A stretch of DNA of 33,882 nucleotides from Anaerolineales bacterium. GTDB lineage: Bacteria > Chloroflexota > Anaerolineae > Anaerolineales > UBA4823. Positions 28,438 through 33,634 of the stretch are shown piece after piece. The notes below the pieces were generated by a model. The model was not told where the DNA came from. It was given only the letters and a program-made list of their open reading frames with translations, and did no database searches. Position numbers and translations under genes: made by a program. Location of the stretch: contig JACUUU010000486.1 of assembly GCA_014859065.1 (NCBI GenBank), positions 1 to 33,882 of the forward strand, given 5' to 3'. Position 1 is the first letter of the stretch. Every line of letters starts with the position of its first letter.

Positions 28438-31400
28438 ATGAATACAGACCCCAAACCCATACGGATTTATTTGCTTGGAAAATTCGAGATCCACCAGGCT
28501 GACAATGTAATAACGAAGAAGGATTGGAAAAGGCGAAAAGCTGCTGTGCTCTTACAGCGCCTGGCATATGAAGGCAGCTTACTTAAAGACCAGGCGATTG
28601 AATTCTTATGGCCTGAGACCGATATCTCTTCAGGTTCAAATAACCTTTATCGAGTAATTTATTCTATACGTCAGACGATTGACTCGTTCTTAGGTGAAGG
28701 GACTGCTGAAAAGATCTTTTCATTCGAGAATGGAATCCTGAATTTGAATGATGAGATATGGGTTGATAGTAAAGAATTTGAAACCCTGTGTTCTTTACAG
28801 CCTGATGTAGCTCCTCAGCAACGTATTTCCAGACACATAAGAGCTTTAAATCTTTATGAAGGGGATCTATTACCCGATGAACGCTATGAGGAATGGACAT
28901 TACTTCCCCGCGAGGAGTTAATGCGACTCCACCGGGAAGTCCGTATTAGCCTGGCTAAAGATTATTTTGAGAGAAATGACTTCACGGTTGGGATTGGGAT
29001 ATTGATGCCGTTGATCGCCAGAGATCCAGCTGATGAAACCGTGCACCAGGAGCTAATGCGAGCATATGCCCTTTCCGGGCGACGTCACGATGCTTTGCGC
29101 CAGTACCAATCCTGCGTCGACAACCTCGAAAATGAACTTAATATCTCGCCTGCACTTGAAACTAAAGATTTGTATAACCAAATTATACGGGGTGAATTAG
29201 TTTCAAAACCTGAAAATCACAAAGCTGTTAACTTGATTCCACCTGAACCTCTAAATTTCAAACTTACAGATTCAGGTCTCTTTGTAGGACGCCAGTCTGA
29301 ATTAGAAAAATTATCAGCGATGATCGATTCAACCAAGCAAGAAGGGCAGGGTAGAGTTGTGTTGATCGGCGGGGAATCAGGCATTGGTAAGACCCGCTTA
29401 GCAATGGAAGCTTTGAAAATGGCGATTGAGGCTGGTATGGAGACTATATTTGGAGCAGCATACGAGCAAGAAGGACGGTTACCCTATCAACCATTTATAG
29501 AAGCGTTTGATCATTTCCTGGCAAAAAAGGAACGTTCTTTAGAAGAGAATCCAATCACTCACTTTAAGCACGCGGGTGAACAAGATTCACAGCTCGAACA
29601 TTGGGCATTGTTTAAGTCTGCCGGAAATTTTTTGCTTGAGATAACTAATCAAGCCCCATTATTGGTTTTATTAGATGATTTACATGCAGCAGATGAGACT
29701 AGTTTGCAGCTCTTTCATTACCTAACTCGGCAAATGCGTACGGCACCAGTGCTTTTTGTTACCACCTACCGAATTGACTCACCTACCATGGTTCAATTCA
29801 ACACCCTACTGAGCACCTTATACCGGGAAGGATTGAGCCAGATGATAGCTCTAAAGCCATTGAACCAATCAGCTGTACAAGAGATATTGGAAGATATCTT
29901 CCAAGGCAAGGTAGATCAGAATCTCACGCGCGAGATAAATGAAATAACTTCAGGAAATCCTTTCTTTGCTCAAGAGATGGGTAGAGCGCTCAGGACAGAA
30001 AGGAAGTTGGAATTGAGGAGAATCTATTGGTCATTGAAATCGGGCGAAAAGTTGAGTGTACCGGACGACTTAAGTGCTTTACTGCGATTAAACGTTAGAC
30101 AGTTGGGCAAAAATGTTGAAGGTGTACTATCTGCTGCAGGAGTGATAGGTAGAGAATTCGATTTCGAGATTTTAAGCAGAGTAGTTGATCTCTCAAATGG
30201 TGAGATTCTGGATGCTCTAGATGTTGCTTTAGATGGTCATCTTATTGAAGAAATACAAAATGGTTATCAATTCAAACACCCTTTGATCCGCAGGACATTG
30301 TATGAGAGCCTTAGACATACCCGCAGAGAAATTCAACATAGACGAATTGCTGAAGCGATAGAGGCTGTTCTTGAGTCCAGGCCTGGGGTGCTGGCGCATG
30401 TAGATGAATCTTTGGCTTATCACTATGATTCCAGTGATCGCCGCGAGCACGCCTTACCTCACCTGATAAAAGCAGGCGAGAATGCAGCTGATGTATATGC
30501 GTTTGAAGTTGGGATCGATTACTTCGAACGGGCAATTTCCCTGATGGACGAATTGGGCTTGAATTATCCCGATCGTTATTGGTATTTACTTGAAAAATTG
30601 GGTTGGTGGTACAAAATATTAGCAGATACACCGAGGTCAGTGAAGAATTTTGAGCGTGCTCTGGCTATGGAAGCAACTCCAGATTGGCAGCCAAAAAATA
30701 ATGAAGTGGTTCGAATGCATTGTGGAGCAGCGGTTGCCTTGATCACAGCTGGTGATTTGGATCCTGCAGAAAAACATTTAGAAACAGCGTTAGATAAAAT
30801 GGATGGAGGGGAGGATGCGCCGGAATATGCTGACCTGTGGTACAACCTGGCGCAGATTCACTGGCACCGCAATGAATATCAACAAGCTATGCAAGTAGCT
30901 GAACGCAGCCTGACGATCGCTAAGCGTTTGAATAAGACTGATGCCATTGCGCGTGCGTATGAGATGTTAGCACTGGCCTGTCATTCACTGGGCGAGTGGC
31001 AGGAGGGTGTTGCTTATGAACGCCAGCGCGCAGATATAGCCGGTGAAGCTCTGGATGTAACAGATGCTTTTGATGTTCATCTATGACTCTGGGAATATCA
31101 CCTGTATGGTGATAAAGGTTATAAAGACGTCAAACAAACCATCGATCTGACCCTGAACCAAGCCAACCGGATGGGAGCGCCGCGGGCTATTGCTTTGTGC
31201 AAGTGCTTTTCTGGTGCGCTCGAATACCAGGCGGGAAATTGGGAAGAAGCGGAGACTGTTCTTGCAGAATCGATAAAATTATATCGAGAACTCGGAGCAG
31301 CTTCGGGTGAAGCACTTGCCTGGCAGCGTCTAGGGGTTATTCAGACCGCAAGAGGACAGTTCGAGGAGGCTATGGATTCTTTTCGAGAAGGACTTGAAGT

Positions 31401-31929
31401 TGCTGATCGCGCTATGATGCGCGCTCATTGCCAGATCCGACTGTTTGCATCCATGATCCGAAATCGTTTATTGGCAGGTGATTTGAAAACTGCAGAGGAA
31501 TATTTTAAGTTAGGATTAGAAATGAGTGTGCGCCATGGAAATTGCGTTACGTGTGATGCATTGTTCTTGCCTGCCGTGGTAAGTTTGCAGTTAGCGAAAG
31601 GTAATATTCAGGAGGCAGAAGAATACTGCCAGAAGCTGGAATCTGCAGTAGATAAATATGGAAGCTCTATGTGGGTCGCAATGGCGAATCAAAGCCGCGG
31701 CGAAGTGCTGGCAGCCCAGGGTCTGTTGGAAGATGCGCTAGAAAAGTACGATAAGGCTTATAAGATCTATCAACAGGTTGGACACAATTACGAAGCCGCG
31801 CGCTGCCTCTCTGCAATAGCTGACCTGCTGGATACAAAGGATGCTTCAGTAGAAGATGAACAAGCTGTTATCATTCGAGAGCAAGCTCAGACAATTTTTG
31901 AGCGATTAGGTGCGGTATATCCTGTTTGA
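28438..31929 (+). CDS. BTAD-STAND-TPR transcriptional regulator with in-frame TGA, candidate selenoprotein
   Basis: One frame of 1164 codons interrupted only by TGA at 31084-31086 (codon 883). Residues 1-100 resemble a winged-helix DNA-binding domain and about 110-250 the BTAD domain. An AAA/STAND ATPase follows, with Walker A GGESGIGKT at about 311-319 and Walker B LLVLLDDLH near 409-417. TPR repeats fill about 650-1163. Read conventionally it would be an 882-residue protein plus a separate 252-residue ORF (31171-31929). However, codons 884-911 continue the TPR solenoid without a stop (LWEYHLYGDKGYKDVKQ...), and no start with a Shine-Dalgarno is seen for the second piece. A bSECIS-like hairpin follows the TGA. 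Cys921/Cys923 (CKC) and C1036-x2-C1039 lie in the distal part, suggesting thiol or metal sensing (inference). Alternatives are a nonsense mutation or sequence error. It heads a cluster with OsmC and methyltransferase genes. Confidence 0.8.
31084..31114 (+). promoter_or_regulatory. In-frame TGA with bSECIS-like hairpin in the regulator gene
   Basis: TGA at 31084-31086. A perfect 7-bp stem pairs 31096-31102 with 31108-31114 around loop TGTAT (31103-31107). There are 16 nt between the TGA and the loop, and the second loop base is G, followed by T. From memory, the bacterial SECIS consensus asks for a loop 16-37 nt after UGA with G in the first two loop positions. SelB would bind such an element to insert selenocysteine. 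Confidence 0.6.
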
Positions 31930-32097: not shown

Positions 32098-32664
32098 ATG
32101 ACTACCCAAATTTCAACTCAAGTAAACGGTGTAAACGTAGACCAGCTTGTGGCAACTGTAAATGCAATCAAAGATAACCCTGAGCTAGCCCGATTCCAAT
32201 TTCGCGCCCGCACTGAATGGCTTGATGGAGGCCATTCACGCACCACTATCAAGGAATTTTACGGCGCAGGCCAGGAAGATACTTCTCGTTCCACGCCATT
32301 TTCTCTAGAAGGAGATGAGCCACCAGTCCTGCTTGGCAATAATGCAGGTCCAAATGCTGTTGAGGCTGTCCTGCATGCCTTAGCTTCCTGCTTGTCGGTT
32401 GGCTTCATCTATAACGCGGCTGCACAAGGGATCAAGGTCGACAGCCTGGACTTTGATCTGGAAGGCGATCTGGATTTGCATGCCTTCCTGGGTCTTTAAG
32501 AGGATGTTCGCCCTGGATACGAGACTATTCGCTTAACTTACCGGGTGAAATGCGATGCTCCCAAGGAGAAGGTTGTTGAATTATGCAACTACGTCCAAAA
32601 AACATCTCCCGTGTTAGATATCATTCGCAATCCGGTTCCGGTTACTGTCAGCTTGCAAGATTAA
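32098..32664 (+). CDS. OsmC-family protein, reading frame interrupted by TAA (possible pseudogene)
   Basis: The frame from the ATG at 32098 encodes an OsmC/Ohr-superfamily protein: GHSRTTIKEFYGAGQEDTSR, PVLLGNNAGPNAVEAVLHALASCLSVGFIYNAAAQGI with the conserved Cys98, and LEGDLDLHAFLGL. A TAA at 32497-32499 (codon 134) then stops it. The same frame continues EDVRPGYETIRLTYRVKCDAPKEKVVELCNYVQKTSPVLDIIRNPVPVTVSLQD to TAA at 32662-32664, which is the normal family C-terminus. The full length would be 188 residues, usual for this group. OsmC proteins reduce organic peroxides through paired cysteines. The TAA probably replaces a variable residue after GL, one substitution from Ser, Glu or Gln codons. 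TAA cannot encode selenocysteine and no SECIS-like hairpin follows. A recent nonsense mutation or a sequence error is likely; the truncated product would lack the last strand-helix unit. Confidence 0.8.
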
Positions 32665-32848: not shown

Positions 32849-33634
32849 ATGACAATTTCTGTAAATCCCGTCATCTCAACCAATGTTGAAGCACTACGCT
32901 GTGCTATCCAAGATGAATACGAACTGGTTGCAACTAACCCCGAACACGGTTTTCACTTTCACACCGGTCGACCGTTAGCCAATATGCTTGGCTATAAGGA
33001 TGAATGGTTAGAGAAGATCCCGCAGGTATCCATTGAATCATTTGCTGGAACTGGTAATCCATTCAGCCTGGGAATACTACAACATGGCGAGAAGGTGGTA
33101 GATGTTGGTAGTGGAGCTGGGATCGACAGTTTGATCGCGGCCTGGATGGTAGCCCCAGGTGGTGAGGTAATCGGTGTAGATATGACCGATGCGATGATTG
33201 CCAAGGCAAACCAGGCAGCGCAAGAGAATGGCTTTGGAAATGTAAAATTTCTCAAAGGATATGCTGAGAAGCTGCCTGTCGAGGATGGTTGGGCAGATGT
33301 AATCATCTCCAATGGAGTACTCAACCTGGTACCGGACAAATCAGCAGCTCTCATGGAAATGGAGCGCATCTTGAAGCCCGGTGGACGACTTCAAATTGGT
33401 GATATCCTGGTTCAGAAAGCTGTCCCGGATGACGCCAAACAGGATATCGCCTTATGGACGGGTTGAATTGCCGGTGCTCTGCTGGAAGCAGAGCTAAAGG
33501 CTACGGTTGTGGCTGCTGGATTTGTCGATTTTGAAATTACTTGGCGAGCAGATGTGTTCAGTGGTGCGCCGCAGTCAAGCAGCGCGGCGGACTTCGGAAC
33601 TCTGGGGATAAACTTTCGCGCTAGAAAACCATAG
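32849..33634 (+). CDS. ArsM-like SAM methyltransferase with in-frame TGA, candidate selenoprotein
   Basis: A frame of 262 codons with a single TGA at 33464-33466 (codon 206), ending at TAG 33632-33634. SAM motif I is VVDVGSGAGIDS at 83-94, the acidic ribose-binding motif is GVDM at 109-112, and ISNGVLNLVPDK lies at 153-164. This is the arrangement of arsenite methyltransferase-like enzymes. Across the TGA it reads ALWTG-U-IAGALLEAELKATVVAAGFVDFEITWRADVFSG. By family pattern the TGA occupies the position of a conserved Cys that corresponds to an As(III)-coordinating Cys of ArsM (C..GAL). The only other thiol is Cys18. A bSECIS-like hairpin follows directly. Stopped at TGA, the protein would lose the last 56 residues, including this site. 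The natural substrate (arsenic, another metalloid, or something else) is not known. Confidence 0.8.
33464..33501 (+). promoter_or_regulatory. In-frame TGA with bSECIS-like hairpin in the methyltransferase gene
   Basis: TGA at 33464-33466. A perfect 7-bp stem pairs 33476-33482 with 33488-33494 around loop TGGAA (33483-33487), with GG at loop positions 2-3. There are 16 nt between the TGA and the loop. A lower 3-bp stem (33470-33472 with 33499-33501) extends it past a small internal loop. The geometry is identical to the element in the regulator gene. Confidence 0.7.

Follow-up and report, generated by a model that had tools for sequence, protein, structure and literature searches.

A predicted stand-alone selenoprotein of the ArsM superfamily encoded together with a candidate selenocysteine-containing regulator in an Anaerolineales bacterium

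Three genes lie in one direction on the forward strand of the stretch of DNA analysed here, a 33,882-nucleotide sequence from an Anaerolineales bacterium that we refer to as the window. A regulator with BTAD (SARP-type), AAA_16 ATPase and TPR domains, identified by domain search and homologues, occupies positions 28438–31929 and has 1163 amino acids on readthrough of an in-frame TGA. It is followed by an OsmC-like gene (32098–32664), a neighbour in a conserved operon, and by a gene for an ArsM-like SAM methyltransferase (32849–33634), assigned by homology, an AF2 model and fold comparison. The methyltransferase frame runs from the ATG at 32849 to an in-frame TGA at 33464–33466 and continues for 55 sense codons to the TAG at 33632–33634; with the TGA read as selenocysteine (Sec) at residue 206, the product has 261 amino acids. 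The OsmC-like gene is itself interrupted by an in-frame TAA (32497–32499) at a site where close relatives have Ser. This TAA reflects either a nonsense mutation or an error in the assembly, and the copy of the operon in the window may therefore be damaged or misassembled.

The original prediction placed the TGA in the frame of an ArsM-like gene, at the column of an arsenic-binding cysteine, and comparison with homologues drawn from bacterial genomes agrees with it on both points. At this codon, 51 distinct homologues have TGA and 48 others have TGC or TGT, so that the 99 aligned proteins have Sec or Cys at residue 206 and no other residue; the column aligns with Cys224 of CmArsM and Cys206 of human AS3MT. 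The TGA-bearing homologues come from Anaerolineae and other Chloroflexota, KSB1, Acidobacteriota, Marinimicrobia and Desulfobulbaceae, Cys forms occur among near relatives (L047, L106, L107, L108 and L118), and at least six switches between Sec and Cys are found on the methyltransferase tree. Protein identity to homologues is higher on the 3′ side of the TGA than on the 5′ side (95% and 75%, respectively, for L039), and four-fold sites have diverged by 60–70%; this combination of a better conserved tail with freely diverged four-fold sites indicates that the tail is under selection at the protein level. According to the AF2 model, truncation to 205 residues would remove two strands (residues 226–234 and 252–259) from the methyltransferase sheet.

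Downstream of the TGA lies a bSECIS-like hairpin of 7–8 bp with the apical loop UGGAA (33476–33494, forward strand). Its arms are GCTCTGC (33476–33482) and GCAGAGC (33488–33494), its loop is TGGAA (33483–33487), and the hairpin and the loop start 9 and 16 nucleotides past the TGA, respectively; in the predicted fold, a lower stem of 3 bp pairs 33470–33472 with 33499–33501. The hairpin sequence, the 16-nucleotide loop spacing and the lower stem had all been proposed beforehand and are confirmed by the coordinates and the fold, whose energy is −18.5 kcal/mol (z of −3.2 to −3.9 against shuffles). When synonymous codons were resampled from each gene's own usage, the 51 distinct TGA genes retained 6.78 of seven stem pairs against 4.49 expected, whereas 13 Cys genes had 3.23 of seven against 3.35 expected. 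Compensatory variation is evident at stem position 17–25 (GC 47, AT 6, CG 4, TA 3), and the stem is broken in the natural Cys form L047. The proposed bSECIS-like character is thus supported by a loop containing G and by pairing that is kept by compensatory change in the TGA genes only. With 51 distinct homologues retaining the TGA, and with a hairpin that follows TGA and not Cys, the observation goes beyond chance. This exact stem is not shared by the fusion forms of Desulfobacterota. The Rfam model SECIS_1 had no match in the bacterium's own genome or in any control genome, and is hence uninformative.

A search of the same genome, suggested as a check on the prediction, recovered the selenocysteine machinery: selB scored above cut-off in a profile search, selA is present as two pieces on separate contigs, selD has an in-frame TGA of its own (G000:C117, L095), and a tRNA-Sec with the anticodon UCA was found. 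On sequence evidence, therefore, the UGA has the behaviour of a Sec codon governed by a bSECIS-like hairpin, in a genome of the class Anaerolineae that decodes Sec, and we regard it as almost certain that the TGA at 33464–33466 specifies selenocysteine in this ArsM relative. The genome also contains a second ArsM-like gene (G000:C10:224-748), which has no in-frame stop and is 42% identical.

The window methyltransferase combines an ArsM fold and a SAM site, seen in both the sequence and the AF2 model (mean pLDDT 92.7). Its nearest solved folds are those of CmArsM (VIA-align Z 27.3 for 4fr0 and 27.0 for 6cx6) and CrArsM (25.9), the next unrelated fold reaching 21.7, and human AS3MT matches with a Z of 20.0. 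Although the overall fold is shared with these three enzymes and residue 206 aligns with Cys224 of CmArsM, the window protein lacks two of their three arsenic ligands and has Sec instead of Cys at the third. CmArsM holds As(III) by Cys72, Cys174 and Cys224; its C174A and C224A variants are inactive on both arsenite and MAs(III), its C72A variant is inactive on arsenite only, and the equivalent of Cys174 is needed for both of the methylation steps tested in CmArsM and human AS3MT (PMC3877260). In the window protein, these ligands correspond by alignment to Thr68 in the motif FAGTGN (33050–33052), Gly156 in SNGV (33314–33316) and Sec206. A further motif, HFHTGR (residues 36–41, 32954–32971), is conserved in the subfamily.

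The loss of the two ligands extends to the whole clade. All three ligand cysteines are present in 41 of 41 canonical homologues, from which a sister clade of 58 mostly Sec-containing members is parted by a branch with SH-aLRT support of 98%. Gly156 is found in 57 of these 58 members, the exception being an Arg in L060, which lies on a 3-kb contig and has two in-frame TGAs; none of the 58 has Cys at position 68, where Thr or Val stands instead. As the alignment indicates, Sec takes the place of the most essential arsenic-ligand cysteine and the other two ligands are lost clade-wide. Cys18 is the sole cysteine of the window protein, as had been predicted, but relatives do not conserve it and have C, T, A, H, R, E, Q, V or other residues at position 18. 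At least eight clade members have no cysteine at all, so that in them, Met aside, no side chain but Sec206 could serve as a chalcogen ligand, and a general partnership with Cys18 is excluded. A working pair of Cys18 and Sec206, which the original prediction had also suggested, is accordingly rejected by the alignment. Because Sec206 is, across the aligned clade, the only conserved chalcogen, ordinary three-thiol arsenite methylation by an enzyme of the window type appears unlikely. The initial assignment to the ArsM-type enzymes therefore stands with respect to the fold and the Sec column, whereas a plain arsenite methyltransferase activity is weakened by the loss of the other ligands.

Selenocysteine in ArsM was recognized as early as Fomenko 2007 (cited in PMC13188914), and ArsM is among the selenoproteins of the GOS survey (PMC2398784). 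As this site has been known since 2007–2008, the present protein is not new in kind. Like the ArsM selenoproteins of NF008823, which have a UxxG motif, the window protein is a SAM methyltransferase in fold with Sec at the arsenic-ligand cysteine before I/V-A-G-A; it differs from them in its HFHTGR N-terminus and in its score, 219.4 bits against a curated cut-off of 263, and its lack of both other ligand cysteines may be a further difference. ArsM/AhpD and ArsM/DUF2284 double selenoproteins were reportedly described by Haft and Tolstoy in 2025. We compared these families (NF041537, ArsM_AhpD_UU, and NF041536, respectively) through their NCBIfam models, a published table (PMC13188914) and two loci above cut-off, L198 and L199, together with the related loci L200 and L201. 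The examined members share SNG (not SNC) and Sec at the same column; as L198 and L199 are themselves ArsM/AhpD proteins above cut-off, a single-chalcogen site also occurs in known fusions. In contrast to the single-domain window protein, the double selenoproteins are fused to another Sec-containing domain and have an N-terminus of the KYPTGR/RYPTGR type. The window protein ends at residue 261 without a C-terminal AhpD domain, and scores 228.8 bits against the NF041537 cut-off of 510. In Desulfobacterota, the SNG-type Sec methyltransferases L198–L210 have an N-terminus resembling KYPTGR/RYPTGR, and a Cys precedes the Cys72 position by two residues. What is new here is the stand-alone HFHTGR subfamily, the recognition that little of its arsenic site is left and, most of all, the candidate Sec-containing regulator.

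The order regulator, OsmC, methyltransferase in one direction recurs at five loci (the window, L192, L194, L148 and L170); regulator and methyltransferase occur in that order in L193 and are divergent in L195. Clustering of the neighbourhoods revealed varied neighbours except for OsmC, the regulator and small sulfur-related groups. Within the 15 kb examined, the genome G223 has the Sec regulator and no Sec methyltransferase. L194 (G661:C4) carries two copies of the Sec methyltransferase gene, separated by about 10 kb, one of which adjoins the Sec regulator. A TusA-like domain is fused to the methyltransferase C-terminus in L042 and, by eye, in L047; DsrE-type genes lie near the methyltransferase in L042, L044 and L047, and rhodanese/metallo-beta-lactamase or ArsR-rhodanese genes adjoin Sec or Cys methyltransferases in L045, L063, L145 and L150.

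The regulator is split by the TGA at 31084–31086 into open reading frames of 882 and 252 amino acids in the same frame, and the TGA would encode a candidate Sec883 in the context FDVHL-U-LWEYHLYGD. It is kept in nine homologous loci (L166, L148, L192, L193, L194, L195, L196, L170 and L168; 31–56% identity), one of them in a KSB1 genome, and Cys stands at this column in L167 (50%), in the paralogue L197 (47%) and in the distant L169 and L158. A hairpin, TATCACC-TGTAT-GGTGATA (31096–31114), follows at the same spacing as in the ArsM gene, and relatives have the form TATCACC-TGTA(T/C)-GGTGAT. Taken by itself, the window hairpin gives a modest signal, with a shuffle z of −1.1 to −1.4 and a synonymous-codon P of 0.21; the signal is stronger in several relatives, P being 0.008–0.07 in most Sec loci but 0.29 in L193. 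Of 12 core homologues, 11 have a C1036xxC1039 motif, which is missing only in L194, in a frameshifted stretch. Additional TGAs in homologues were discarded as Sec codons: those of L194 (G661:C4) lie within the frameshifted part, and L192 and L167 simply terminate at their second TGA. An AF2 model built from two sequences only gives an all-helical TPR solenoid (mean pLDDT 82). The BTAD, AAA_16 and TPR domains found with Pfam are those of AfsR/SARP-type regulators, from which the window protein differs in its in-frame TGA at 883 (with Cys counterparts), its conserved CxxC and scores far below the NCBIfam cut-offs; the N-terminal winged-helix DNA-binding domain, Pfam Trans_reg_C, had no match in the regulator at E 0.001 in a profile search. 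We propose the TGA at 31084 as a candidate second conserved Sec codon, which would define a new selenoprotein family. No such regulator appears in a 2026 inventory of 119 selenoprotein families (PMC13188914). Among the open papers searched, none reports a bacterial selenoprotein that is a transcription regulator. To our knowledge, a bacterial transcription regulator using Sec would be the first of its kind.

Other readings of the methyltransferase gene have to be weighed against these data. The interrupted OsmC-like neighbour, with its stop where relatives have Ser, and the draft state of the assembly (491 contigs) could suggest a pseudogene or a sequencing error in which the TGA is a real premature stop. 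However, 51 distinct genes spread over several phyla have TGA at this codon, the sequence past it is under purifying selection, the hairpin is restricted to TGA genes and the Sec machinery is present; we therefore reject this explanation, which is strongly contradicted and highly improbable. The protein could instead be an arsenite methyltransferase of the ordinary type, with Sec in place of Cys and with the two missing ligands supplied by glutathione or other small thiols. Its fold and sequence are nearest to ArsM, and ArsM selenoproteins are listed as arsenite methyltransferases (PMC13188914). Against this, the two residues lost clade-wide are those whose loss abolishes both tested steps (Cys174, in CmArsM and AS3MT) or the first of them (Cys72) (PMC3877260), and the protein falls short of the NCBIfam cut-off for ArsM, so that we regard this reading as unlikely.

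A methyltransferase for sulfur or selenium, in which Sec206 would take a persulfide or selenide from carriers of the TusA, DsrE or rhodanese type and methylate it, seems to us doubtful, if a little less so. It would accord with the TusA fusion and the DsrE-type and rhodanese-type neighbours described above; these carriers, however, occur at few loci, and the window has none of them. We consider the gene product to be probably a stand-alone ArsM-superfamily selenoprotein, which would use the single selenolate of Sec206 to methylate a soft substrate and belong to an operon with OsmC and the Sec883/CxxC regulator.

In this proposed mechanism, Sec206 alone would anchor the soft substrate beside SAM for methylation. 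With both partner arsenic thiols gone, the three-thiol mechanism of the textbooks cannot hold in its present form, and arsenite may not be the substrate. A candidate is dimethylarsenite, the substrate of the last methylation step, which would need one protein ligand; DMAs(III) is bound by one Cys (PMC3877260) and fits the ligand count of the window enzyme. Alternatively, the substrate may be a soft sulfur, selenium or metal(loid) species passed on by partner proteins, and the TusA fusion and the DsrE and rhodanese neighbours of some relatives point to sulfur or selenium species. The regulator, with Sec883 and CxxC, probably senses the same soft compound or redox state and turns the operon on; its role as a metalloid or redox sensor is suggested by the Sec/Cys column, the CxxC and the gene order alone. 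We lean, with modest confidence, towards a stress operon of two selenoproteins, in which the Sec regulator would sense a soft metalloid or reactive chalcogen and induce the OsmC-like protein and the single-selenolate methyltransferase.

In this clade, selenocysteine is kept though both partner arsenic thiols are gone, and the database label 'arsenite methyltransferase' may be wrong for such proteins. Standard gene calling cuts such TGA genes into two false open reading frames, the regulator in the window included. A conserved Sec codon in this regulator would extend selenocysteine to transcriptional control.
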